This document shows positions 11,870-62,700 of a stretch of DNA of 64,000 bases, in pieces (the stretch's first letter is position 1; every line of letters begins with the position of its first letter). The notes below the pieces were generated by a model. The model worked only from the letters and a program-made list of their open reading frames with translations, made no database searches and had not been told where the DNA came from. Source of the DNA: Branchiostoma floridae (Eukaryota; Chordata; Leptocardii; Amphioxiformes; Branchiostomatidae); assembly GCF_000003815.2 (NCBI RefSeq), contig NC_049979.1:31262271-31326270 (forward strand), given 5' to 3'. The position numbers were made by a program, and so were the translations under genes.

Positions 11870-14843
11870 AAGAGAAGATTACGGCAAGGATTGTCTGGAT
11901 ACTGTAAGATGCATGGAAAAGACCTGTGTGAAAACCGCGCGATATCGGAACCACTTACGGTTTAACCTCCACTGTAAACATCACGATGTCACCCCGGCGA
12001 GTCTACGGTTGTCTAGCTCAGTAAAAGGGGAAAAGGCTCATGCAATCCTCCGACGAGCAGAGAAACAACTTTTGAATGTAAGAATCGGACAAACCGTACA
12101 CAATTCAAGTCTTTGGATGCTCAAAAATCACACCTGGAATGCACGCTGGAAAGCGCCCTTCCGGTGGAAATTTCCCAAGAAGTCAGGTCTTGGGTTGAAA
12201 GGTCACAATTACGGAACACCTGGTAGCTAAAAGCCGTCAACAGAATAAATTCTCCCACCTTGTTCAAAAGAGCAACAGCCAGGACAGCGCATCCATTGCC
12301 TCAGACTGTATTAAGAAGTGGGTAAAGAACTTCTCGGACAGAATTTTAAGTGACCCAGAGTTTTCAGTACTTGCTAAAGGGCTAAATTTTGCACCAACAG
12401 AGACCAAATTACCGGTTGTTGATATCATTTCACAGACTGAGTCGGCCTGTCGTAAACTCCCTAAAAAGAGGCTAATGTTTTTAGATCAAAGTTTCAAGTG
12501 TCCTCATTCACCCAAGGAAAGTAGATTCGAACCTCACTAAGCATAACGTCCTTGCACTAAGCAAGAACGTGAGGCACTCAAATCCCTTCAGAAGGACGAA
12601 AATATCCTATCCCACCGATAAGGGTCTCTTGTTTGTTTTGAATTACCATCGTAAATGTAAGGCCCTCTTGGACGACAACTCTACTTATGTAAAACTCGGG
12701 AAAAGAGACCCTACATCTGGATATAAGAAACTCTTGATATCTGTGCTACAAAAAAATAGAGAAAGATAAAGGCATCAACAGGGTTACATATAGACAACTA
12801 TACCCTACGACGGAAATACCCCAAAATTTTTTGGCTTTTCTAAGGTCCACAAAGGGGGCATACCGTGGAGACCGATAGTCAGTAGCGTTAGTTCTATCAC
12901 TTATCCTAGCGCTAAGTTTGTAGCCGACATTCTTTCTCCCCTGGTCGGAAAATCCCCCTCACCATATAATAACTTCGCATCATTTTGCCGGTCTCATTAA
13001 AAGCAAGAGGGTAGAGCAAGACGAAGAACTTAGATCTTTTGATGTTACGGCTCTGTTCACTTCTGTGCCAGTTGACAAAGCGCTTGACATTATACTAGAT
13101 AGACTACAGAACGATAGTACACTTTCACAACGGTCTACATTGTCCCCAGTTCATGTCAGGGATCTTTTGTAGGTTTGTTTAGATTGTACTTACTTTCTAT
13201 ACAATGGTAAATTTTTCAAACAGATCCACGGGGCGGCCATGGGCTCCCCTGTTTCCCCAATAGTCTGTAACATTTATATGGGACATTTTGAACAGGTGGC
13301 TATCAACACCGCACTTCACCCGCCCTTGTGGTGGTATAGGTATGTAGACGATACTCACACAAAGCTGAAAAAGGTTCACGCACAGGAATTTGCTGACCAT
13401 ATCGATAGCATTGACCCCGACGTTGAATTTACTTTTGAGGAACAAAAAGACAACCCCTACCATTTCTAGACACTGTGATACGAGGGGCGTTCAATAAGTA
13501 ATGTCCCTGACCCATTTCCCATAGCAGGAGATTAATGAAACTTGGCACAGTTATTAGTATTTCTCTACATAGGAACCACCTAGAGTTATACATTTCTTCC
13601 ATTGTTTGATGCAGCTCTGGACACCGTTTTTGTAGAACACCCCAGGTTGGTCCTCCAACAGATGCCTCATCAATAGCAGAAGAGGGACGACCAGCTCTGG
13701 GAGCTGTTTCCACAGACTTCCGGCCATGTTTTAATTCACGATGCCAGCGTTTTACAAGGTCATATGACGGGGCATCATCACCATAAGTTTCTTTCATTTC
13801 ATCAAAAGTCTCCTTTGGTGTGCGTCCTTTCAAATACAAAAACCGGATCACTGCACACACTCAACTGGCTCCATTTTACACCTGGCTCCATTTTACACCT
13901 GATTCACTTCAAACACCTCTAAATCAGAAACCACAATTAGTTCATAGCTGCTTTTTGCAACATAACCCATAGAGATATAAATCATTACACATGCAAAATT
14001 TCATGTAGATCAGACAACTGAAAGTGGGTCAGAGGCATTACTTATTGAACGCCCCTCGTAGTTGTTAAAGAGGACGGTTCTCTGGACATTGACATTTATC
14101 GCAAACCAACCCACACAGATCAGTATTTGAACTTTGAGTCCAATCATCCCTTAGAGCACAAACTTATCGTAGTCAGAACACTTTTACACGGTACCAACAC
14201 CATTATCACTGACCCTATCAACAGGCAAAAAGAAACACTACACGTAACACAAGCACTTAAGCAGTGTGGGTACCCGTCTTGGGCGATAAACAAAGCCGCG
14301 GCACCTAAATCCACTGTTTCCCGTGACCACAAGCCGCACCTTACCAACAGACAGAACAACAGAGGGTTGGTTGTCCTGCTCTACGTGAAGGGCGTCTCGG
14401 AAGATCTGCGTAGGATCTTTAAGAACCACAACATACAAACCTGTTTCAGACCTGCACGTACCCTACGACAGTCACTGGTGGCACCAAAAGACAAGACAAA
14501 GAAGGAGGATAAGTGTGGCATAATATACCACATCCCGTGTCAGGGAAGAAATACCCGTGGTCTCTGCCAAGAATCATACATTGGGGAAACCGAGCGCTCG
14601 CTCAAGACTAGGTTCTTGGAGCACAGGAGAAAGAGTTCGGCCTCGTCAGAGGTGTCACAGCACATTCATATTGAGTCACCGGGACATTTCATCATCTTGG
14701 ACAAAGTACAAATATTGGACGCCGAACCGGATTACTTTGGGAGGGGGGTAAAGGAGGCCATCTACATAAGGGCACACCAGCCGACACTCAACAGAGACGG
14801 GGGCCGATATCTCTTGCCAGGCATTTATGATTCGTTACTCTAA
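11870..14843 (+). pseudogene. Penelope-like RT / GIY-YIG endonuclease, broken
   Basis: Recognisable pieces in order are: an N-terminal block with 'HLRFNLHCKHHDVTP' (near 11950-11995); the conserved 'LAKGLNFAPTETKLPVVDII' block (near 12372-12430); 'KVHKGGIPWRPIVSS' after a frame change (near 12846-12888); RT motif A 'FDVTALFTSVPVDKA' (near 13037-13081); motif B 'HGAAMGSPVSPIVCNIYMG' (near 13227-13283); and motif C 'YRYVDDTH' (near 13336-13359). After the MITE, 14127-14843 is open and encodes a GIY-YIG nuclease: 'GIIYHIPC', then 'YIGETERSLKTRFLEH', ending at a natural stop. Several stops and frameshifts lie between 12530 and 13200. The catalytic boxes look intact, but no continuous frame exists. 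Confidence 0.92.
13481..14058 (-). mobile_element. 578-bp mariner-type MITE, nested in the Penelope-like element
   Basis: Terminal inverted repeats begin CGAGGGGCGTTCAATAAGTA and are flanked by a TA duplication at 13479-13480 and 14059-14060. On the minus strand it encodes the N-terminal helix-turn-helix of a mariner transposase ('[20 protein letters not shown] ... PSYDLVKRWHRELKHGRKSV') but no catalytic DDE domain. With the element and one TA removed, the Penelope reading frame runs through. A second copy of exactly the same length is at 59761-60338. Confidence 0.95.
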
Positions 14844-19600: not shown

Positions 19601-22600
19601 GTACCAAGGACCATGAAGGTGCTTTTTCTGGTCTACAAAACAACATATTCATCGATCATAGATTTCATCTCCATCATATTTAAGATACTTGTACTTGGTA
19701 CTTCAATCGACATAAGACACAAATATCGTATTATTATCCGTACTTATGTGACATTGTGCGTATACATTCCACCCTTCTTCTTCGCTATCTTTCGCTCATC
19801 ATAACTATATATATTTGATTCATAATAGAACAATAACTGGATCGAACGCATTATACATTCATGTATCACACAAGGGCCATGTGCACTACACGAATATATA
19901 AGGGCCAAACACATCAAACGTACATACATAGTTACATAAATACATGCAAGGGTCAAACACATCACACATACATACAAGGGTCAAACACATCACACATACA
20001 TGCAAGCGTCAAACACATCACACATACAAGGGTCAAACACATCACATATACATACATACAAGGGTCAAACACATCACACATACATACAAGGGTCAAACAC
20101 ATCACACATACATACATACAAGGGTCAAACACATCACACATACATACAAGGGTCAAACACATCACACATACATACAAGGGCCATGCACATCACACATACA
20201 TATAAGAATCAAACACATCACACATACATACAAGGGTCAAACACATCACACATACATACAAGGGTCAAACACATCACAATCACACATACAAGGGTCAAAC
20301 ACATCACACATACATACAAGGGTCAAACACATCACACATACATACAAGGGTCAAACACATCACACATACACACAAGGGCCATACACATCACACATACATA
20401 TAAGAATCAAACAGATCACACATACAAGGGTCAAACACATCACACATACATACATACAAGGGTCAAACACATCAAACATACAAGGGTCAAACACATCACA
20501 CATACAAGGGTCAAACACATCACACATACATACAAGAGCCATGCACATCACACGTAAACACAAGGGTATAGAGACGCATTTGGCCAACATTTGAAAAGCC
20601 ACCGCACCTTTTCTGCATTGTTCTGCGGCACCATGACAGAGACGCCGTCAAAGCGATGCCACAGCCGGTAGATGATGGGCACGCAGCTGATGAGGCAGAC
20701 ATCCAGCGGGATGAAGTAGATGGCCAGAAAGGTGTAGACTGCGAACCCCTTCTCGAAGTCTTTGGACGGCCAGACCGGGCGGCAGATCGTCTGCAAGCCG
20801 TACGGTCTCCAGTTCAAGTCCACCAGGCGATAGTGCAGGGGGACCGGCAGGGCCATCAGGAAAGATACTTCGGGAAAGAAAGAAACCTTTACGTTGGCCA
20901 CGAAACCAATAGATAATGTTGAGTAGAAGCTGATTGTTATGTCGATGAAGGTTAAACATCCAAATAAAAAGAACTAGTCCACAAATTGTAGGAATATGTG
21001 ATCTACCAAGAATGGCATTGTACAAACAGGCGTTTCTTACCATCATAAACCATTTGCTTAAAGTTATTCTACGTATGCCTATATAGGTTTGCTGAATAAA
21101 AGATAAAAAAATAGAAGATACGCCAAATAGCACATACTCAAGCAACTGAATATGACTTTGGAAACAGACGATTCAAGTAGCACCCACAATCTTTTAACCA
21201 CTATAGTATTAGCTTCTGTAGTCAAGCAACAGGAGCTGATGGAATAATTTGCATGAACTGTGTATTGACTTTGTCTTATTCTTTTTGTTTTCTATTTGAC
21301 TATGTGAAATTTGTCATTACCTTTTTTACATTATCAACCACTTGTGACTTCATACTGCTCTTCGACACTACTGCTCGATGCTATTTGTTTGTCTTACCGT
21401 TTCCAAATTAAGTCCAGTTTCTTGAGTAAACGCTATCTGAACTAGTTGTATGGCTTGTATAGTCATCTGCCAACCATACCCACCCAACCCCCATTAGACC
21501 GTAACCATGTCCTGTACGTATGAACATTTACTGCATTGTAACTAATGCCCACACTATTGTTCTAGGTATTTCATGCTTTAAAATTAATATAAGGCCTTCT
21601 TTCATGCCGATTATATCAAAACCAATGGATTCATAATCTAATTCAATTAATTTTTAAAATATATATGTTACTCACGGATCCAAATGAGAACGTTGACAGA
21701 GATGGCTACACCCTTCCGGCGGAAGGTGAGGGAGGCCACGGGGTGTACAATAGCGCAGTACCGGTCAACACTCACGGAGGCCAGCGTCAGACAGGTTGCC
21801 TGAGCAGTTACCTAAAGAGAGAAATACAAACATGATGAAAATACTTCATGTTTGGAACCGCATCTGTAAGCAGCGACACCTAGAGTTACAAGTGAACCAG
21901 TCACAACTGCCCGGATGAAGGTGACAGACGGTCACCAAAACGTTGCTTGAATAAAACATTTATTTGTGTAACATATCATCTTGTTATTCTGGTCCTCTTT
22001 TGTAGCCTATTGAAACACTAGAGGCGAGTGGAACAGTTTTTACCCCAGGCTCGCTCCCAGGACTCGAACCATATCCAGCCGGATCCGGGCAGCCAAGATC
22101 CCAAAACCATATACGCTACCGATGTCGCCACAAAATCTCAGAGCTCATTGGTAAGGACGGTAGGTGGTACTTGAGCCCCACAGTTATACTACTCCCCCTT
22201 TTCTTGTCAAGATTCGTCCTCGAATCTCCAAGTTCGATATCCCCGTGGGCAGGCACATCTCTAGCCTGTTAGACACAAGGCCGGTATGGGAACCAGTGAG
22301 CTCCTTGGCAAGGACGGCAGGCAGTACTTGAACCCCACTGTTACACTATTGCAATTATCGACTTGAGGACTTACCTGCATCATGTAGTTGACCATCTTGC
22401 ACATGCTTTCGCCGAAGACCCAAGAAGGCATGGCGTACTGTGCTGCGGTGAAAGGAACACAGCATAGCAGAAAGGTCATGTCAGTCACGGCCAAGTTGCA
22501 CAGGTAAAAGTTGGTAACGGTTCGCATTTTGCGGAAGAACGCCACCACGTAGATCACAAGGGAATTGCCAGTAACCCCAACGAGAAAGATGAAGGCAAAG

Positions 22601-29000: not shown

Positions 29001-29269
29001 ATATTCGTGTACTAGTAGCATGCGTCCGTACGGCTGTCTGAGTTATTTCCTTTAGACTTAAGTATCTGTGCGCGTTATTTAATCTCCAAGCAGATCTTGC
29101 GTGGCACTAGCTTTTACTAGCTTTAGACTAGAGAGTAGACACTTGTGATATTGTTAATTGTGTATACAGTTAATGGCACTCAAGTTTCTTTTCTTTTGGT
29201 CAATTGATACCAAAATTTTAAATCAACAAATCACATATTCTATACTTGTGGCAAAGTAGTGTCTTTTTA

Positions 29270-30120
29270 GTCAGAGGTAGACAACTAACAGTTGGTCCAT
29301 CTGTGTGGTAAAGAGATCGCTTGTTTTTTTTTTTTTACAAAGAATAGGTAGTTACAGGTGGACGACACAATCTGCTTGTGCGGCAAAGTAGCATCATTTA
29401 AAAAACAATAGGTAGTCAGAGTTAGACAACTAACAGTTGGTCTAGCTATGTGGTAAAGAGATCGCTTGTTTTTTTTTTTTTACAAAGAATAGGTAGTTAC
29501 AGGTGGACGACACAATCTGCTTGTGCGGCAAAGTAGCATCATTTAAAAAACAATAGGTAGTCAGAGTTAGACAACTAACAGTTGGTCTATCTGTGTGGTA
29601 AAGAGATCGCTTGTTTTTTTTTTAAAAAGAATAGGTAGTTACAGGTGGACGACACAATCTGCTTGTGCGGCAAAGTAGCATCATTTAAAAAACAATAGGT
29701 AGTCAGAGTTAGACAACTAACAGTTGGTCTAGCTATGTGGTAAAGAGATCGCTTGTTTTTTTTTTACAAAGAATAGGTAGTTACAGGTGGACGACACAGT
29801 CTGCTTGTGCGGCAAAGTAGCATCATTTAAAAAAACAATAGGTAGTCAGAGTTAGACAACTAACAGTTGGTCTATCTGTGTGGTAAAGAGATCGCTTGTT
29901 TTTTTTTTTAAAGAATAGGTAGTTACAGGTGGACGACACAATCTGCTTGTGCGGCAAAGTAGCATCATTTAGAAAACAATAGGTAGTCAGAGTTAGACAA
30001 CTAACAGTTGGTCTAGCTATGTGGTAAAGAGATCGTTTGTTGTTGTTTTTTTACAAAGAATAGGTAGTTACAGGTGGACGACACATTCTGCTTGTGCGGC
30101 AAAGAAGCATCATTTAAAAA
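29270..30120 (+). repeat. Six-copy tandem repeat, about 145 bp
   Basis: 'agacaactaacagttggtc' recurs near 29279, 29424, 29570, 29713, 29855 and 29998. Each unit also has a 9-14 base T run and 'aggtggacgacaca'. Units are over 95% alike, with T-run length differences. Confidence 0.95.
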
Positions 30121-30164
30121 ACATTGTATAATACAGTTGTCCATTCACCAACTTTATGCATTTT

Positions 30165-41732: not shown

Positions 41733-42377
41733 TTAATTGGTGGGCCAGGCCTTGCAGATCTTCTTGTGACCTGCCTTCCACGCCACCTTCTGACACTGGG
41801 GTGAACAATACCAGGCCCGGTGGCAGCGGCTGCAGACGGAGAAGGGGCTGTCTTTACGCGCCTTCTTCCCGCACTGCGTACAGATGCTGCAGTCGTCCCC
41901 CTCGTACTTGCACCTCTGGCACTCGCACCAGAAGTGGTAGGCGCGGTAGAGCCAGGCGCGGCGCTGCGGGCGCTGCATGGAGGTGTCGATGTAGGTGGTG
42001 TACAGCTCCCCGCCTTTCTTGATGGGCTGTTTGGCCCGGATGACCACCCCGGGTTTCCCGTCCACCACGGCGTCCATCACGTCCACGTTCTTGTCGCAGG
42101 AGTGGTTGAGACTGGACTGCAGCGCGTACAGCCCGCCGAACGTCACGTCCTTGGGCTCGCCCCGCATCTCCTGCGCCACCCGCCGGTGGTTCTCCCCGGG
42201 CCGGGCCGTCCGGTGGAACTCCGCCACGAACTCGTGCCACGTGACGCAGGGCGGCCCGAACGACTGGACGTTACAGGCCACCTGGTAGTAGCGCCGCTCG
42301 AACTCCAGCTCGTCGATCTTGTACTTAATCTCGGTGTTCTGGAAAATCGCTTGCATGATCTTCAGCATCTTAGGGAT
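41733..42377 (-). CDS. SET-MYND gene exon 7 (SET core, post-SET, MYND 2)
   Basis: Acceptor GTTCCCCAG before ATCCCTAAG. Open for 214 residues to the stop at 41735-41733. Confidence 0.93.
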   Translation of the reverse strand: MPKMLKIMQAIFQNTEIKYKIDELEFERRYYQVACNVQSFGPPCVTWHEFVAEFHRTARPGENHRRVAQEMRGEPKDVTFGGLYALQSSLNHSCDKNVDVMDAVVDGKPGVVIRAKQPIKKGGELYTTYIDTSMQRPQRRAWLYRAYHFWCECQRCKYEGDDCSICTQCGKKARKDSPFSVCSRCHRAWYCSPQCQKVAWKAGHKKICKAWPTN

Positions 42378-45300
42378 CTGGGGAACATACAAACAAACGT
42401 TTTGAACCACGACCATAAAGTGAACACATACAACCAGTACTGTTACGATTAGCACTTTAACCAATGAGATCATGACTATTAGCGGTTCGACCAATGTGAG
42501 TGTGGCTGCAAGTCTATCAAACTGTGTAGCCTTGACAGTCAAACACACGTCTATCAAAATTAGCACTTCAACCAATTAGCGGTTCGACCGATGAGAGAAC
42601 GAATTCGCAAGGGAATGTGTGCGAGGAATTTTTTGAATATTTTCGACTCAACAGCAGTGCCATACCAACGGCTCCGCCCCTGAGGCGTCGCCAAAAAGTC
42701 GGACAGACAAAAGTTCGTACCCACCTGTTTGACGAATCCGGACACACCGAAGCCGAGGAAGCGGCGGTACGGCTCCTTGGCGCGGGCCCACTGGTCCTTG
42801 GTAGGCTCCCCCTTCACGCCCAGCTCCTTCACACGGGTCAGGATGTTCGCCCAAATACGCGCCATGATCATCGGGCTGAACATGGAGTTCCACATGCCTG
42901 CGGCAAGGATCAACACAATGACAAGAGTCTGAACATGGAGTTCCATATGCCTGCGGCAAGGATCAACACAATGACAAGAGTCTGAACATGGAGTTCCATA
43001 TGCCTGACTGTGGGAAGGATCAACACAATGACAAGAGTCTAAACATGGAGTTCCATATGCCTGTGGGAAGGATCATGATAATGACAAGAGTCTGAACATG
43101 GAGTTCCACGTGCCTGTGGGAAGGATCATGATAATGACAAGAGTCTGAACATGGAGTTCCATGTGCTTGTGGGAAGGATCAACACAATAACAAGTGTCTG
43201 AACATGGAGTTCCACATGCCTGTGGGAAGGATCATGACAATGACAAGAGTCTGAACATGGAGTTCCACGTGCCTGTGGGAAGGATCATGATAATGACAAG
43301 AGTCTGAACATGGAGTTCCATGTGCTTGTGGGAAGGATCAACACAATAACAAGTGTCTGAACATGGAGTTCCACATGCCTGTGGGAAGGATCAACACAAT
43401 GACAAGAGTCTGAACATGGAGTTTCACATGCCTGTGGGAAGGATCAACACAATGACAAGAGTCTGAACATGGAGTTTCACATGCCTGTGGGAAGGATCAA
43501 CACAATGACAAGAGTCTGAACATGGAGTTCCATGTGCCTGTGGGAAGGATCAAGACAATGACAAGAGTCTGAACATGGAGTTCCACATGCCTGTGGGAAG
43601 GATCATGATAATGACAAGAGTCTGAACATGGAGTTCCACATGCCTGTGGGAAGGATCAACACAATGACAAGAGTCTGAACATGGAGTTCCACGTGCCTGT
43701 GGGAAGAATCAAGACAATGACAAGAGTCTGAACATGGAGTTCCACATGCCTGTGGGAAGGATCATGATAATGACAAGAGTCTGAACATGGAGTTCCACAT
43801 GCCTGTGGGAAGGATCAACACAATGACAAGAGTCTGAACATGGAGTTCCATGTGCCTGTGGGAAGAATCAAGACAATGACAAGAGTCTGAACATGGAGTT
43901 CCACATGCATGTGGGAAGGATCATGACAATAACAACATGAGTCCGCGAAACCTCCCTGAAGTAACTATGTTGTTTATAGTTTGGCCAATAGGTGTGTACC
44001 AGGATGTACAATATCACCAAACTCTGTTTTCTTTTATTTCCAGTTACCTGTTTACTATAACACTTGGCAGTAAACTAGGTGGTGACCTAACCTTTGCTTG
44101 GAGTGTATCTAATTAGCTCCAGGCTAGCGTCCCAGACTACACAGGCGACCAGCATCTCTCTCTCTGTCTTTCTTCTACAACTTGCAAGGAACTTGTTACG
44201 GTATTGCAACTTCGGGAATTCTTGAAACTACAGGAGTCGGTTTGTTTCAGACTTTGAAAGAGAATAACTCGAGAAAGGGTTGGTACATAGACAGCTTACA
44301 TACTTCTTATTCATAACTAGATATATCTACTACATAATCTGCATAATCAAGGATAAGAGTTTATCACCTTTCTCCTGGGTGGTCCCCTTGGCGCAGAAGT
44401 CGTACAGTTTGGCGGCAGGCGGGTTGATGGAGGGACAGAGGTGGCAGTGGTGTTGTCTCCAGGCGTGGGTACGGCACTCCAGACTGCAGTACTTCTCACG
44501 CTTACAGTGGGGACACGGGTACGCGGTCACCTGTAGCACGGTACATCGACAATTTCATACTTTCATGAAAGGTTTTCTGAAGAGTTTTGTAAATGTCTTG
44601 ACAAAATATAAGACATCTGTGTCTATCGCATGCTAGAGTTTTTACATGCTCAAATTAAACCCGGCTAACTCAGCATATGGAAACAAATTTGGACCCGGGC
44701 CAACTCAGCCAGAGGGAATAGATTTTGACCTTGGTTTAACTACGCACACACACCATGATCACACAACAACAACAACAACAAGCAAACAAACAAACAAATA
44801 GACCGAAAGCAACGGAGCCTTTATGGCTAGTCATGAGAATACCATTTGTATGGTGCGTTTTCCTGCCTAGTATTTATCTAGTATCTATTCCGGCCCTACA
44901 AGTCCCACCCAATACCCTAGGCAAATCATTACTAGCTAAACTAGAAATGGATAACGCTAGTTCACCTTTATCCGCCAGGTAACCTATATCCATTGTTTTT
45001 AGAAAAAGGATATTCAAACTGCAACATTTTGAAATATTACGACTATATAACACCAAGGACATCATTATCTCATAACACGGCCGCTTGATACCACCGCCCG
45101 TCTACTTGATATCCCCAAGGACATTATAACGTCCTTGATATCCCTAAATACTTTACTTAAATTTGTCTTCAGAAATAATGGATATAGGTTACCCTGTGGG
45201 AAAAGGTGAACTAGCGTTACCATAGTCTTTCCTCCATAGACTGACTAGTGATTTTGTAGCACATGTTTCTACCAGAGTGAGAAAGATCATCACGCTGGTA

Positions 45301-48085
45301 CTTGATATGTGCAGCTGTGTATGGCACATGCCTTTACCAGGATGAGATGAGAGTGACATTCATACTGGCACTTTAGATGTGCATTTCACTAGAATTTTCT
45401 AACAAACACAACTAAATTCAGTAGGTTAGGATGGAAACCCCACCTAGCCGTTCATGAGCGTTACGTTATTTTTACCATTTTCTACTTATGACAAGTCGCT
45501 GTATCTCAATATATGTAGTCTTGTGCTCTTAAATTCAGGTTCACATATGCGTATATAGCAACGTCCGTATGAGGTCCATGTGGAATTCTTACCCTCTACC
45601 AGGCTCCACAGGTCGCTGTAAGATAGTAGAAATTGGACAAATATAGACACATAACATCCGGAGGAGTTACCTGTCCGAGGAGTACAGTTCGCGTCCAGCT
45701 AACTCCGCTGGCATGCTATTTGTCTATATTTGTCTACTTTCTACTATTTTTCCAGGGACTTGAGGAGCCTGGTAGAGGCTAAGACGTCAATACGGACCTC
45801 ATACTGACTAAAACATATACGCACGTGTGAACCCACCTTAGGCTTAGGTCACATTTCCAAAGCGGGGTCCGGCCGGGGTGTTTTAAGAAACGAAAAATTA
45901 AATTGTATACCTAGATAAATACACAAATTATGCCCACGAAAATTATTTTAACATTTTGTGTATTTTGATGTCTTTTCTATAATTCTTTTCGTTCCTGAAC
46001 GCTGCCCGACCGGGCCCCGGTTTGGAAATGCGACATAACATAAGCCTAAATGACAGTCTAGTTCTATTGTTTATATAGCTATTAGTTGTGCTTACAGGTT
46101 GTTTCGCAGTAATGTCAGTTCGCAACCGTCAGTTCGCAACAAGGCAAGTCTTTTCGCAATAAGGTACAGGTCGTTTCGCAACAAAGTAGCGCAACATTTG
46201 AATGTATCCCTATGATTATACTCCTATCTGTGCACGCCGCGTATGAAACTGTACCGTCCGTCGTATGAAAATCATCGGGCTGTCAGGTTCATGCGACCAA
46301 ACCTATGTTCCTCTGCCGCCAGGGTTGTCTTTTGCACCCGGTAAGATTTTTACGCGAGAGGAGTATAATCAAGTTAGGACTACGATTTCTAATACTATTA
46401 GGCAATACTGTTAGTGGTTGCCATACACTGTACTTTGTACGATTGTTGTGCAAATAAATTCATTCATTCATTCATTCATTCATTCATTCATTCGTTCATT
46501 CATTCATTCATTCATTCATTCATTCATTCATTCATTCATTCATTCACTCATTCATTCATTCATTCACTAGTAATAAATGTACAGAAGAGCACCTTCGGCC
46601 AGGCCTTTTTGATGATGGCCTTCTGAGCCTTGTTCATCCTCCTGAAGGTGTCCATGCCGAAGTAGTCCTCGGCGGTGAGCAGGGAGACTGCGCAGTGGCT
46701 GCAGGCGGGGTGCGCCTTGGCGGAGTCGTCCGTCTGGGAGGAGACGAGCGGAGTGTCCCGGAACAGCTCCTGGCCTTCCGCCACGTCTTCAGTACAGAAC
46801 ACCGCGCGACCGTACTTAGTGAACCTCACCTGGAATTAATGTTGTTAAGAAATCACGATTATATTCCCACAGCTTCCCCACATTTAAGCTAAGGGCACAA
46901 CCCTTGCTTGTTTGTACGTGCAAATACTTGCTGTCTACGTAATCTCGAACCAGATCCACGGTGCGTAATGTATAGTATCAAGCTTCTCCGGTGCCCATTT
47001 GACTCCCTTGGCCGGCTACACTCCTTGGCCAGCTTTGATACTATCTTATGGCACCGTAGGATCTGCTTGGAGATTACTGTCTACGTGCCAAAACGTGGGC
47101 AATCTTTTGGGATCCGTAAGTGGTAAGTACCGCCTCCGTACGAACTCGTAGGGAATCCGATGGATTTTGGAGCACGCAGACACGCCGTAGGCAAAACTTT
47201 GTGTGCCATCGGGCTGCGGTTTCGCCCACCGCACGTGCCAGTACGGGCGACGCGCCTGCCCTGAACAGCCTGAACGTTGCGGACGTGGCCTCCCAAAAAA
47301 AACGTACGGACAATTTGCACGTACGGTGGGTTGTGCCCTTAGCTTTACGGGAAAACAGAAAGCCACGTTCCTCTTAAAATCACCCCCCCCCCCCAAAAAA
47401 ACACAATTGGTAGAAAAAATGGAGTTCTTTATCCTCCTCTGCCTCCAATAGAGAAGTCAGACGAAACCTAATATCTGAATATAGTCACTTAGTCTAGTAT
47501 TCGAGTAGTCTCTTTGTACAATGATATTTATCACTTTTCATTGTTACATGCATATTCCCTACCTTGTTTCTACTATGTACTTGCAAATTAGACTACGGGT
47601 ACAAACTTGCGATAAACTTTCTTTCTTTTGTTGATTCGACTATATGGATGGCATTTTCTTTAAACCCTAAAACTGATGCGAGCGTAAAAATAAAAACAAT
47701 TTTGTGAAAGAAATTACCTCCATTATCAAATCTTTGTGGTCAAGATGGTTGAACAAATGATTCAACACTCAGTATAACGAACAATAGATTCTTCATTTTT
47801 GTTCTTTGTGCTCAATTTACTAAAGTAAAGTCAAGTATTAGCTTACTTGTATTTTCCAATTGCTTTGTGCGATAAAGTTATCTTTTTTTGAAACGGAAAA
47901 AAATAGATGCGCGCGCGGATGTCATCCATATGATCGACCACCTCTGTCAAACTTAGAAGTATAAAACAAAATGCAGAAACGCAGATATGTCACAGACAAC
48001 TAGTACTCTCACATTGGTTTAGGCACTAATTTTGTGTGTGTCTGCGTTTGAATGTGACTGAGTTTTTGTTTGTGTGTGCGTGCGC

Positions 48086-48148
<63 letters not shown>

Positions 48149-50691
48149 TGTGTGTGTGTGAGAGAGAGAGATCGAGTGTGTGTGTACCTGTGCGTTATGT
48201 ATCTAGATTACACGACTAGAATACGTGCATGCACGTAGATCTTTAGCGAAGGAAACCAAAAGCTATCATAGCACCGATTACCTGTACAGAGGTGCCTTCG
48301 GTCAGAGGATCGTAGAAGCGGTGGATGCGGGTCTGTTGGAACAGAAGGAGAGCCTCGTAATCGTTCCCCTCGGTCAGTCGGCTGGCGCGCCGGAGCCAGA
48401 CCTCGGACAGTACGTACTGTCCCAGGCTGGACAGCACTCTTCCTGGAAGGCAGATATTTCATGCACATTTTAACATGTGAATGTAGACCTTTATTGCACA
48501 TTTTTATCCCACAGGGCTACGTACAAGTCACATTTATAAACATGTAACGATGGTAACAACCGTATACATGTACATTCATATGTACTTATAAACGTCTAAT
48601 CTTCTCTCGCGTAATATTATGTTTCCATTTCTGACATCAAGTGATAACGCTAGCTCACCTNNNNNNNNNNNNNNNNNNNNNNNNNNNNNNNNNNNNNNNN
48701 NNNNNNNNNNNNNNNNNNNNNNNNNNNNNNNNNNNNNNNNNNNNNNNNNNNNNNNNNNNNAAAACAGGATATTTAGGGACATCACGTTGATGGACGGTGG
48801 TTTCAAATTGCATTTTTTTCATTATAATGCAGTTTGAGACCTCCGTCCGTCAACTTGATATCTCGAAATACCCTTTGTGTTAGATACAACGAATAAAGGT
48901 TACCCTGCGAATAAAGGAGAACTAGCGTTACTGGCATTGACAGAGCCTGAGCGGGAATGCCAGTTATGGTCTCTGGTTATGGCCTTAACAACGGCCTTGG
49001 GTTGAAGGAGAAATGTTCGAGTTCGGATAGATGAGACCCACTTACGGGGACTCCTGTAGGGCCAAAATTAGTCTGGCGATTCCTAAAAACATGCGTTATT
49101 CAACTATGTTCACGTGCAAAACTTATCCATTATATCAAAGATAAAAAAGCGAATCCAGGGGTTTCTTATTTCATGTCCGTATGCAGGTGGTTTGTGGAGG
49201 GCCCCAAAAAGTATGAATTATGACCCCTGTTTTCCAACAGCATTTTTTTTACTATGAAATCCTCTACGTATATAACCTCTATACTTCAAATACCTTATGT
49301 CATCATCTAACTACAATATACTGGAAAGACTCTGTAAGTTTGTCCACACATGCTTTACGAAAAGAGAAGAAGCACGTAAACTGTAGTATATGTATAGCTG
49401 TCCGTTTACTCCCTCTGTACCAAACTGACTGAATTTAGCCCCAATGGGGCATATGAATATGCAGTAAATTTCATTGTCATTGTCATTAACCTAATTAAAT
49501 TTACCTCCAATTTTCCACATAGCGACGGGCCTGATGTCCTTGTGGACACTGATGCAGTCCCGGAAGGCCTCCCGGTAGTTCTTGAGGGTGAAGTTTGCCT
49601 GCGCGCGGAGGGCCCAGTAGTCCAGCACGCCCGGGTCCAGCTCCAGCGCCAGGGTGAAGTGTTCCAGCGCCTTCTCGTGGCTGCCCGTGTCCCGGAGAAC
49701 CTGCGCCACCTCCGCCTCCATGGCTGCGGCGGTGGGGTCCCGCTCCCTGGGGGAACGCAAGAGTTAGCGCGTACACGTGACAGTTAGAGACCAAAAACAA
49801 GACGTTTAACCATTAAAAACCCTTCCTTAGTGGGGTTTCATGTAAAATCTAACCAAGTTGGGGTGGCTATGGCCGAGGAATTGGAATGACTTGTTGAAGT
49901 TTTGTGTACGGATACAAAGTTTAAAATTGTAACATAACTTGTTCAATCAGTCATGATCTTTATCATCCATCTTGGTGTTTTCCGGACCCACATGACCCCG
50001 ACCCAAACTGACCATGGGGGGAGGGAGGTTTGCAGACTAACCGTATAGAATTTCTTGGAAACACATTTGATGACAGTTGAAAAAACAAGTTATTAATGGT
50101 TATATGAGGATACGTTTATATGATTTGAACTTTTGATTCTCGAGATAATAGCATCTACTTTCTTATGGGATAACGTGCATTTTCTGTATTTTCGGAAACC
50201 CGGTGCCCACCCTCCCCCCCCCCCCCGAATATCCAACCATGCCCCCCCCCCCCTCCCTCCTTACCTCTCCATGATCCATGCGGGGTCCGTGTAGCTGTGC
50301 TCCTGTAACCACCCCCATTACACTCCATGATCCATGCGGGGTCCGTGTAGCTGTGCTCCTGTACCCATCCCCCTTACCTCTCCATGATCCATGCGGGGTC
50401 CGTGTAGCTGTGCTCCTGTAACCACCCCCCTTACCTCTCCATGATCCATGCGGGGTCCGTGTAGCTGTGCTCCTGTAGCCATGCCTCCTCCCCCTCAGCC
50501 TTCTCCCCATCCCCCGGGTACGGGTCCTGACTGCACAGGCGGAGAGCGTTGAACTCGGCGTTGTCGTCTTGTCCCGCGCTCTCCAGTTCGCTCTTGAATT
50601 TCTCCAGCATATCGGACATGGTCATCGCCTCCTCTGCAAGCTTCCCTGCCTTCTTCACATCTCCGTTCGACATCTTCTGCTTTGCCTCCAT
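41733..50691 (-). CDS. TPR-SET-MYND protein (SMYD5/SMYD4-like), seven exons, 625 aa
   Basis: Predicted lysine methyltransferase of the SET-MYND class. Joined exons 50435-50691, 49505-49746, 48282-48442, 46593-46829, 44368-44530, 42725-42897 and 41733-42377 give 1878 bases in phase (introns 2, 1, 0, 0, 1, 0). In order: an acidic N-terminal region; two TPR-like helix pairs (about 92-160); SET-N 'RFTKYGRAVF' (222-231); MYND finger 1 with C263/C266, C305/C308, C314/C318 and H327/C331 inside the split SET; SET core NHSC (502-505) and 'GGELYTTYID' (533-542); post-SET C562/C564/C567; and a second MYND finger C577/C580, C593/C596, C602/C606, H615/C619 ending six residues before the stop. The NHSC-post-SET stretch resembles SMYD5, but TPRs are a SMYD4 feature and the second MYND is unusual. 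Substrate unknown. The exon 4 donor (AAG|GTGCTC) is weak but is the only one in phase. Confidence 0.92.
42725..42897 (-). CDS. SET-MYND gene exon 6
   Basis: Acceptor TTGCCGCAG before GCATGTGGAACTCC, donor GTGGGT. Residues 354-411. Its first 22 bases form the terminal unit of the 20-copy minisatellite at 42876-43935. Confidence 0.88.
42876..43935 (-). repeat. 53-bp minisatellite made of the exon 6 acceptor, 20 copies
   Basis: The unit, on the minus strand, is 'gcatgtggaactccatgttc' (start of exon 6), 'agactcttgtcattgtgttg' and 'atccttcccacag'. Twenty copies differ by a few substitutions. The last copy supplies the real splice acceptor and first bases of exon 6; the other 19 keep a pyrimidine tract and CAG. 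Confidence 0.95.
44368..44530 (-). CDS. SET-MYND gene exon 5 (second half of MYND 1)
   Basis: Acceptor GCTACAG, donor GTGATA, phase 0 in and phase 1 out. Contains 'CPHCKREKYCSLECRTHAW'. Confidence 0.9.
44952..45219. mobile_element. 268-bp TIR element (TAACGCTAGTTCACC family)
   Basis: Termini TAACGCTAGTTCACCTTTA...GGATATAGG inverted at the right end. A second copy with an assembly gap is at 48645-48930. The target duplication is not clear. Confidence 0.85.
45220..45530. other. Intron sequence, nothing recognised
   Basis: Two 'gatgtgca'-type short repeats only. Confidence 0.4.
45533..45836. mobile_element. Long-TIR element in intron 4
   Basis: Arms of about 70 bases: 'aggttcacatatgcgtata' to 'ctctaccaggctcc' on the left, inverted at 45764-45836. 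The inner termini 'ctctaccaggctcc' match the style of the 9-bp-duplication element at 51245. Confidence 0.65.
45838..46050. mobile_element. TIR element (TTAGGCTTAGGTCACATTTCC)
   Basis: The left terminus through 'ccaaagcggggtccggccgg' is inverted at 46006-46050 ('ccgaccgggccccggtttgg' ... 'aagcctaa'). About 213 bases, no coding capacity. Confidence 0.75.
46425..46570 (+). mobile_element. Non-LTR 3' tail ending in (CATT)n
   Basis: 'tttgtacgattgttgtgcaa' then ATAAATT and about 30 CATT units, a retroelement tail that has become a microsatellite. Confidence 0.6.
46593..46829 (-). CDS. SET-MYND gene exon 4 (SET-N, first half of MYND 1)
   Basis: Acceptor AATTCCAG. It runs to AAG before GTGCTC. A (CATT)n tract begins about 30 bases after the donor. 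Confidence 0.85.
46887..47344. mobile_element. PIF/Harbinger-type MITE, second copy, with nested insertion
   Basis: Termini AGCTAAGGGCACAACCC with TTA at 46884-46886 and 47345-47347. Same family as 15891-16206 in inverted orientation. Split by the element at 46940-47076. Confidence 0.9.
46940..47076. mobile_element. 137-bp MULE-like MITE nested in the Harbinger MITE
   Basis: Termini TAATCTC and GAGATTA, with longer subterminal similarity, flanked by perfect 9-base duplications CTGTCTACG (46931-46939 and 47077-47085). Nine-base duplications suggest a Mutator-like origin. Confidence 0.85.
47380..48030. other. Intron 3 sequence, nothing recognised
   Basis: AT-rich, with C and A runs at the start. 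Confidence 0.4.
48040..48190 (+). repeat. (GT)n microsatellite
   Basis: Long interrupted TG tract with a short GA segment, in intron 3 about 90 bases from exon 3. Confidence 0.95.
48282..48442 (-). CDS. SET-MYND gene exon 3
   Basis: Acceptor CTTCCAG, donor GTAATC, phase 1 in and phase 0 out. Helical linker 'QYVLSEVWLRRASRLTEGND' to 'EGTSVQ'. Confidence 0.85.
48645..48930. mobile_element. TIR element (TAACGCTAGCTCACC), second copy
   Basis: Left terminus at 48645 and inverted right terminus ending 48930. A 100-base N gap (48661-48760) lies inside, probably because the hairpin was hard to assemble. Confidence 0.8.
48661..48760. other. Assembly gap (100 N)
   Basis: Run of N inside a TIR element. 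Confidence 1.
49410..49492 (+). mobile_element. Non-LTR 3' tail (CATTGT)n
   Basis: 'gccccaatggggcatatgaa' then 'tatgcagtaaa' and a short CATTGT tail. Confidence 0.6.
49505..49746 (-). CDS. SET-MYND gene exon 2 (TPR region)
   Basis: Acceptor TTCCCCCAG, donor GTAAAT. Encodes 'AQVLRDTGSHEKALEHFTLA' and 'WALRAQANFTLKNYREAFRD', which fit the TPR consensus. Confidence 0.9.
49800..50260. other. Intron 1 sequence
   Basis: No gene; ends in C-rich runs (50213-50260). Confidence 0.5.
50262..50490 (-). repeat. Four-copy tandem repeat of exon 1 end plus donor
   Basis: About 50-60 base units, each holding (minus strand) 'gagcacagctacacggaccc' 'cgcatggatcatgga' and, in three of four, GAG|GTAAGG. The copy at 50435-50480 is the real exon end. 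The copy near 50326 has a damaged donor (GTAATG). Confidence 0.93.
50435..50691 (-). CDS. SET-MYND gene exon 1
   Basis: ATG at 50691-50689, residues 1-85 plus two bases. Donor GTAAGG follows GGAGAG at 50434. The last 38 bases and the donor are repeated downstream in the intron. Confidence 0.85.
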
Positions 50692-59733: not shown

Positions 59734-62700
59734 CTGCAGGGACACAATAGGGAACATTTACGAGGGGCATTCAATAAGTAATCCACCTGACCCACTTCCA
59801 GTTGTCTGATCTAAATAAAATTTTGCATGTGTAATGAGTCATATCTCTATGGGTTATGTTGCAAAAAACAGCTCTGAACTAATTGCGGTTACTGATTTAC
59901 TGGTGTTTGAACTGAGTCAGGTGTGAAATGGACCAGGTGTGAAATGGAGCAAGTTGAGTGTCGCGCAGTGATCCGGTTTTTGTATTTGAAAGGACGCACA
60001 CCAAAGGGGACTTTTGATGAAATGAAAAAAACTTATGGTGATGATGCCCCATCATATGGCCTTGTAAAACGCTGGCATCCTGAATTCAAACAAGGCCGGA
60101 AGTCTGTGGAAACAGCTCCCAGACCTGGTCGTCCCTCTTCTGCCATTAATGAGGCATCTGTCGGAGGACCAACCTGGGATGTCCTACAAGAACGGTGTCC
60201 AGAGCTACATCAAATGATGGGAGAAATGCAAAACTCTGGGTGGTTCCTATGAAGAGAAAGACTAATAACTGTGCCAAGTTTCATTAATCTCCTGCTATGG
60301 GAAATGGGTCAGGTGGATTACTTATTGAATGCCCCTCGTACCTACTGCTGTCAATAGTATCATCAGGTTAGTAAGTCACTGAATAAAGAGACTCTTTACG
60401 CAACCACCGTTTATTTACACCAGCGCTTCGGTGCCTGTCTGTCAGCTTCCTCAGGGCAATAATGACTGGTGGTTCACAAGAACGGTTGTGTAAACAAGTG
60501 CTTTAAAAAAAAGCTGTGCCTTGCCGCGTAGTAGGGTTATCGTCAGGAAAAAGTGCCTCGCCGCTTCACCCATGTTCATCAGTAAAGATGAGGATCACAT
60601 AAATTAATCAGAGACAACCAGAAAAATAAACGTTAGCTGTTTTATTTTTACAATTAAAGAATGATGAATCCTTTCCAGTGGACTTTTTCCCTCTAAAAAT
60701 AAAATTTTCAACTGTTACTGGGGTCTTAAAGTAATAATCTGCTCTTTCAAATAGTGCTACTCTCATTCTGCTGTGGTCTAGCACGTCGATGCTCAAGTGC
60801 CGTAAACACAGGGTCACACAGCCAGTGCGGTATCAAGACAGTTCGGTAGAAAAGTCTGCATCGACAAGCTCATAACATTCCACGTTATCATTAACACATC
60901 AAGATTCCCACACCCCTTGTCATCATACAACACTCTCTTGGGACAATATGCCGGTGCCCAAGGACGCCAATGAAACCAGGCCAGGTTTTGCTATCGCAAA
61001 CCTGAAACTATATGGCGGCGGCCAAGTATGCGTGCAAGCGTGGCATGGCAAAAAAGTCCCTTTATTCAAGTTATTAACTGGAAACCAAACCAAGGTCTAT
61101 CTTGGGTTACCAATATACAACGATTTCAGATGCTGTAAAAAGGTACAGGTTGTCCCATAGCCCATAATAGCCCATAATAGGCTGTTATCCACTGTGTCTA
61201 GGGCATGAATAACATACAAGGTAAGGACTAGGTGGTGCCCAACTCTCTCCTTCCACCATTGGTGGCATGTCAGGGGGTTCAAACACAGTAACTCTGGGCC
61301 AAACCCTAACCATTATGGCAACTGGGTGCCCACATGAATCTTGTCAGACATACTTCTTAAAAGCTGATGATGCAGCAAGCGTATTCAATTCTGGTGGGGA
61401 CTACTCTCCATGTATATGCACATGCAAAATGGCCATGTAGAAAATTCCTGCAAGCCTCAAAGAAAAAAAACAGGAACAACCTAGGCTATGCAACAGACCT
61501 GTGTCTAGTTAATCTTGAAAGTTGGAGAGAGTAAAGATTTGGTCCATACCTTGCCATCAGCCCAGCGGTCAGCGATGTCCTGCAGGCTGGCGTCCAGCAT
61601 GACCATGAGCTCGCTGAACTTGACCCACTGTGGTACGTACAGCTGGACCTCTGCTTCTACAGCTTTCCTACTGCACAGGGAGAGAAACTAGACTTTCTCA
61701 AGCTGGACTTTAACTAGCAGGGCTCGAAATACCACCTACATATGCAGGTTAGTGCAGGTAAAACTGGAGCTGTGCAGGTATTTCTGGTGTCTACCTGCAC
61801 CTAACCTGCACTGGTCCATGTACTGGGTTTTATACATAAATGTCCTTATGATGTAGGTGTACGTGGATTGTTATTAGCTACATTGCTACCAAAGCTTTCA
61901 TTGACTGTTACCACCTAAAAGTATAAAAGAAAAAATAGGAATGGTTCCTGAACAATTTTAGTATGATCCATACCTCCTAAATTCAGAGTGGTGCAGGTAA
62001 AATTTGTCTGGTGCAGGTAATTTTCAATGTTACCTGCACCAGGGCAGGTATGCAAAAAAAGTATTTCGAGCCCTGACTAGCGATCAGTGCTGTTCTGCCT
62101 GAAGCAAGTACCTCAATGGATGACAAATTCCTGTACCACTTTTTTCCTTGCGATCCACTAACGCATGGTACACGCAATGACAGCATTGAAGACATTGCAG
62201 ATTATGTTGATACAATCATTTCAATTCTCAAATGTACAAATGACAAGCTTTTGTTAGTTTACCTTTATACTACCATTTACATGTAAGTTGTTTTCTGGGA
62301 AATTTGACAACCCAGCACTGATTCTGTGTTAGGCCTACATTCGGGACAACATACATATTGAATAGTTGAATGGAGAGTGAAGGAGAAAGCAAGTTTACTT
62401 TTTGGTGTCCTCCTTGACAACAGGGTGGAACAGTAGAGGGGCCCTCTCTTTGACTATCCCACACAGGGAGTGGAGCTGAGCTGCATCATCTGCAGAGATG
62501 TCTTCCAGGGCTGTCACTTTACCTGCAACACATAGATGATAGTGTAAATGCATTTAAATTCACAGGGATTTACTTTTGCAGTAGCCGAAAATGGACATTT
62601 CGCTGTGGTTTTAAGTTCGCAGTAGAGTCCATTCCAAGACACCATGAGGGTTTTTAGGCGATATTTATAATTAGTCTGAATTATTTTGAATAAAAGAATA

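Follow-up and report, generated by a model that had tools for sequence, protein, structure and literature searches.

A Splice Acceptor Repeated in Twenty Tandem Units at an Exon Border of an Amphioxus SET-MYND Gene

The window analysed here (the whole stretch of 64,000 nucleotides from Branchiostoma floridae) carries on its minus strand a SET-MYND gene whose seven predicted coding exons join without a frame break into a protein of 625 residues followed by a stop codon. In the predicted protein a TPR region is accompanied by a SET domain at residues 227–540, interrupted by one MYND finger, and by another MYND finger at the C terminus. The C-terminal part of its SET domain matches the SMYD3 and SMYD2 chains in the PDB. 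The coding part of exon 1, starting from the ATG (50435–50691), and exon 3 (48282–48442) are placed by the joined frame, and exon 2 (49505–49746), which encodes the TPR region, by the joined frame and a domain match. Exon 4 (46593–46829) opens the SET domain, and its borders are the least certain of the gene model because its acceptor (3.99) and its donor (3.22) both score low. A microsatellite of 27 ATTC copies occupies 46458–46566 in intron 4, starting 26 nt past the predicted exon 4 donor. Exon 5 (44368–44530; donor AGAAAG|GTGATA) encodes the first MYND finger, and taken alone it gives a MYND match of 21.2 bits, slightly below the Pfam cut-off of 22.7. Exon 6 (42725–42897; donor AAACAG|GTGGGT) is 173 nt long and is entered in phase 1, so that the last base of exon 5 and the initial GC of exon 6 form the glycine codon of GMWNSMF. 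In the whole-protein search it gains no separate domain match and sits inside the split SET region, and it is predicted to be coding from its open, joined frame. Exon 7 (41733–42377), supported by domain match and frame, encodes the end of SET, the second MYND finger and the stop codon. When the whole protein was compared with the genome (E ≤ 0.001, best candidates scored), all seven matches were the exons of the gene itself and none was a paralogue.

Other features were recorded elsewhere in the window. Two open stretches, at 13432–13860 (minus strand) and 59911–60249 (plus strand), contain a Mos1-type transposase helix-turn-helix (PF17906) and are possibly mariner remnants. A 142-bp unit is repeated six times at 29268–30123 with 95% matches, and the array is also detected with a 287-bp unit. 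Twenty-two copies of a 28-bp minisatellite lie at 19940–20567, within the intron of a minus-strand GPCR (7tm_1) gene. By a boundary judged by eye they start about 40 nt downstream of the exon, so that the array does not span a junction and was rejected as a case of the kind described below.

The acceptor array at intron 5 and exon 6

A tandem array at 42876–43935 on the minus strand extends across the junction of intron 5 and exon 6. Tandem Repeats Finder reports a period of 53, 19.9 copies, 92% matches and a score of 1713, in exact agreement with the coordinates, period and 20 copies of the preliminary description. Direct parsing resolves 20 units in the assembled sequence, all of 53 bp except for one that a 4-bp insert lengthens to 57 bp, with a mean pairwise identity of 92.0% when the insert is dropped before comparison. 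The units combine a pyrimidine tract and an acceptor with the first 22 bases of exon 6, as had been described from the letters, so that 22 of the 53 bases derive from exon 6 (42876–42897) and the remainder from intron 5. The authentic copy is unit 20 (42876–42928), in which the TTGCCGCAG acceptor leads into the exon's own first 22 bases. The other 19 units, which we call decoys, extend over 42929–43939 by direct parsing, the array end given by Tandem Repeats Finder being 43935. The claim that they supply 19 decoy acceptors holds for the number of extra units and must be lowered to 18 for the number that bear an AG, since the distal-most unit has lost it (CACAT). CAG|GC is in place in 15 of the 19, the AG is displaced by one base in units 12 and 15, and unit 18 has two AGs. 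The retention of CAG|GC in these 15 decoys could reflect constraint or merely recent homogenisation.

The arrangement of the units tells something of how the array grew. Four pairs of identical units stand three apart (3 and 6, 4 and 7, 12 and 15, 13 and 16), and identity at lag 3 averages 94.3%, compared with 92.0% overall (P = 0.0016 by shuffling of the unit order; 0.017 when the best of lags 1–7 is taken). This pattern fits duplication in blocks, partly of three units, as in ordinary minisatellites, and such block growth suggests past length instability of the array.

Tandem repeats that span exon-intron boundaries are known in amphioxus as mirages and have been described in Adh3, globins, troponin C and PGBD5 (PMC3087553, PMC3902484), with the phenomenon in print since at least 2002 according to PMC3087553. 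The array in the SET-MYND gene is a mirage, since its unit spans the boundary, 18 of its 19 decoys keep the AG and the genome is that of an amphioxus. It is thus a new and large example of an already known kind, and among the literature matches listed we found no report of a mirage in a SET-MYND gene.

A donor array in the same gene and a globin array in the same genome

The acceptor array had been presented as a one-off, which does not hold, as its class is already known and the same gene harbours a second mirage on the donor side. At 50255–50481 (minus strand) a 57-bp unit is repeated 4.0 times across the junction of exon 1 and intron 1; three of its four donors share the sequence GAG|GTAAGG and the fourth is destroyed, so that GTAAGG is kept in two of the three decoys. 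Of the 49 GTs in a scan that began 60 nt into exon 1 and ran through intron 1, six leave an open frame as far as the end of exon 2. One is 50434, the first donor of the array; the remaining five, all upstream of it in exon 1, lack its consensus by eye, and 50531 among them is out of phase. The decoy donors do not figure among the six. In both arrays the exon-proximal copy, the last acceptor and the first donor, is therefore the authentic one by frame, and this is the choice that would give the longest intron. A nearest-site rule would not predict such a choice, and recognition together with the exon would. The two arrays are the only minisatellites inside the gene (period ≥ 10, at least 3 copies), and if one unit were dropped at random into the introns or junctions of the gene, 8.4% or 9.1% of its positions would bridge a junction. 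As independent evidence the second array is weak, the first having been the given finding.

A search of the genome with globin returned nine exon matches, one of which, at locus L017, overlaps an array of 4.2 copies of a 158-bp unit (L017 954–1601) that repeats an acceptor and the start of the globin exon. It contains four acceptors, three decoys and the authentic one at the exon, it is likely to be the published BflGb6, and it supports the assignment of the SET-MYND array to the mirages and of the genome to an amphioxus. A survey covered 69 loci, comprising all 9 globin, 30 of 116 MYND and 30 of 118 P450 matches and together 238 kb; arrays were accepted at a period of at least 10 and at least 2.5 copies and counted only when overlapping a domain match. 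Of the 32 arrays found, the globin one alone does so. The count is a lower bound because the MYND locus L027, which is exon 7 of the SET-MYND gene, by its coordinates includes part of the acceptor array and left it uncounted, this array having no overlap with the match. In L013, L075 and L028 the distance between array and match is 13, 11 and 46 nt, respectively. At a further MYND locus (L019 1778–1867), a 35-bp repeat of 2.6 copies lies within the open frame that holds the match. The sample gives no ground for calling mirages common.

Choice among the twenty acceptors

The reading frame distinguishes the authentic acceptor from its copies. When joined to exon 5, each of the 18 AG-bearing decoys leads to a stop after 2–48 codons: 13 units stop after 13 residues, two after 2 and two after 48, and unit 18 stops after 32 or 13 depending on which of its two AGs is taken. 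With both donors held fixed, we scanned all 87 AG dinucleotides from the exon 5 donor to the exon 6 donor, and three leave the frame open into exon 6, namely the authentic site at 42898 and two sites of the form CATGTT(T/C)AG (CATGTTTAG or CATGTTCAG) within array units. The tract of these two is poor by eye, so that among the three only the authentic site has a good pyrimidine tract. Of the 20 homologous acceptors, only the last is thus predicted to give the full protein, and the use of 42898 is predicted from frame and domain logic. Two earlier claims, that the gene-proximal copy is the functional one and that splicing to a decoy meets a premature stop, stand on this frame logic, the former because one copy in 20 would keep the protein open and the latter for 18 of 18 AG-bearing decoys. 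A later acceptor at the edge of the array, CATGTTCAG|CCCG, was also considered and is absent from the three frame-keeping AGs among the 87. Cryptic exons arising from the decoys are unlikely, as no donor candidate in the array scores above 3.94, compared with 3.22–10.60 for the six predicted donors of the gene, yet the exon 4 donor (3.22) is weaker than this candidate.

The local properties of the sites point in no such direction. Acceptors were scored with a weight matrix of approximate frequencies. The authentic acceptor reaches 6.59 bits over 14 nt and 8.12 bits over 20 nt, and by either score 14 of the 18 AG-bearing decoys stand higher, one is equal (unit 19, which carries the same TTGCCGCAG) and three are lower; a stronger authentic acceptor is thereby rejected within this approximate matrix. 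In three folding settings the unpaired probability of the authentic AG is 0.098, 0.054 and 0.019, which ranks it eighth, third and second lowest among the 20 AGs, and a stretch of three units folds no better than shuffled sequences (z = 0.09). Masking of the decoys by RNA structure, which CCACA/TGTGG hairpins had suggested, was rejected for these two reasons. Because the authentic site scores below 14 of 18 decoys and is no more accessible, local strength and accessibility do not favour it and do not account for its choice.

What separates the last acceptor from the others is its surroundings, since it alone is adjoined by the body of exon 6. The exon 6 donor CAG|GTGGGT is a good one, scoring 9.52 with approximate frequencies, and the exon defined with it measures 173 nt from the authentic site, 226 nt from decoy 19 and up to 1131 nt from the furthest AG-bearing decoy. 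Past the authentic AG, GAAG first occurs after 67 nt; for the decoys this distance is at least 120 nt. TCTT follows every AG-bearing decoy, at 22–27 nt in 16 of the 18 and at 76 nt in two, and none follows the authentic acceptor down to 42600; an action of PTB-type repressors at these motifs is speculation. Exon definition alone discriminates only weakly, because splicing to the nearest decoys would still yield exons of ordinary length (226 and 279 nt).

Explanations and relation to known mirages

We consider it probable that the array is a neutral mirage, in which a tandem duplication spanning the junction grew and was tolerated as the innermost site is recognized together with the body of the exon. 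In this scenario, 53 bp spanning the boundary of intron 5 and exon 6 would first have been duplicated in tandem, with later growth on the intron side, partly by three-unit blocks. The last acceptor would then be chosen because it adjoins the exon 6 body and its donor, through exon definition plus exonic enhancers, and RNA from occasional decoy use would contain a stop and be lost to decay. The Adh3 data and globin RT-PCR in PMC3087553, which suggest that splicing across mirages is regular, speak for this reading and partly answer the puzzle of the many acceptors. The anatomy, the frames, the block growth and the lack of any advantage of the authentic site in strength or accessibility are observed here, and the mechanism of splicing, the decay and the neutrality are our inference; the array itself is most likely neutral.

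It is unlikely, but by some way the best of the alternatives, that the decoys are used appreciably, so that stop-containing RNAs are degraded or a truncated protein is made and copy number sets the output. This reading draws on the AG kept in 18 of 19 decoys, all 18 of which would lead to a stop after 2–48 codons, and on the 14 of 18 that outscore the authentic acceptor with the approximate matrix. Against it, Adh3 data and globin RT-PCR in passages of PMC3087553 suggest regular splicing, though RT-PCR may miss degraded RNA, and a passage of PMC3902484 describes the Adh and troponin C mirages as being without aberrant mRNAs. Tuning by copy number, which the preliminary description had proposed along with variation between individuals and, as an alternative to strict choice of the last acceptor, tolerated truncated isoforms, is possible. 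One form of it is a splicing rheostat, in which a hypervariable ladder of intact poison acceptors, mirrored by the donor ladder, would divert a copy-number-dependent share of transcripts to decay; this we regard as improbable. If it were true, heritable and somatic changes in repeat number would adjust the dose of a SET-MYND methyltransferase.

An artefact, with the array expanded or misassembled, is very improbable. Array lengths are often wrong in assemblies, and the BflGb6 mirage was itself aberrantly assembled in the genome draft used by its authors, as noted in PMC3087553; here, however, the units are not all identical and follow a patterned higher-order arrangement, a mirage of published design occurs in the same genome, and a search of the 513.4-Mb assembly (best candidates scored) gave one match, the window's own. 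Very improbable too is a recursive ladder, in which CAG|GCATGT would act as both acceptor and weak GC donor and intron 5 would be removed unit by unit to give the same mRNA, for although this motif fits seven of nine donor consensus positions (a hand count) and scores 3.26 after the GC penalty, near the 3.22 of the weakest predicted donor (exon 4), it is present in only 8 of 19 decoys, being GCACGT, GCACAT or GCATAT elsewhere, GC donors are rare, and the junction differs in the globin mirage at L017.

The acceptor array offers a natural test of how splicing chooses among many near-identical sites, and the same gene sets the mirror problem at a donor. Its 53-bp unit and 20 copies make the array well suited to weighing exon definition against nearest-site choice with minigenes and long reads. 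It also bears on intron gain from splice-site duplications.

Amphioxus mirage minisatellites were reportedly described at Adh3 by Canestro et al. in 2002 (Nucleic Acids Res 30:2871). The model of Rogers, as presented in PMC3087553, derives new introns from tandemly duplicated splice-site sequence, and potato RdRp is reportedly a case of this kind (PMC4974935). The SET-MYND duplication resembles what these sources describe in carrying splice signals and could seed new introns; unlike the model, no new intron or exon is seen, and the repeats stay within one intron and one exon edge. The Adh3 mirages of Branchiostoma are likewise boundary-spanning tandem repeats, with units of 10–72 bp, length instability that includes somatic change and splicing reported as undisturbed in passages of PMC3087553, the gene being a different one from the SET-MYND gene here. 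The nearest design among the globins is BflGb6, which in the account of PMC3087553 duplicates the 3′ end of an intron and the 5′ part of an exon, with many units keeping splice signals, just as the SET-MYND array duplicates the end of intron 5 and the start of exon 6; its units of 150–160 bp, in 6 and 3 repeats in two haplotypes, differ from the 20 units of 53 bp found here. BflGb9, described in the same source, differs from the acceptor array in that it duplicates the 3′ boundary of exon 2. PGBD5 of lancelet, a domesticated transposase gene, has fewer copies, given in PMC3902484 as 2 or 7 of a 60-bp repeat and 3 or 6 of a 108-bp repeat in two assembly versions. As described there, it shares with the SET-MYND gene the presence of two short arrays overlapping splice sites in one and the same gene.
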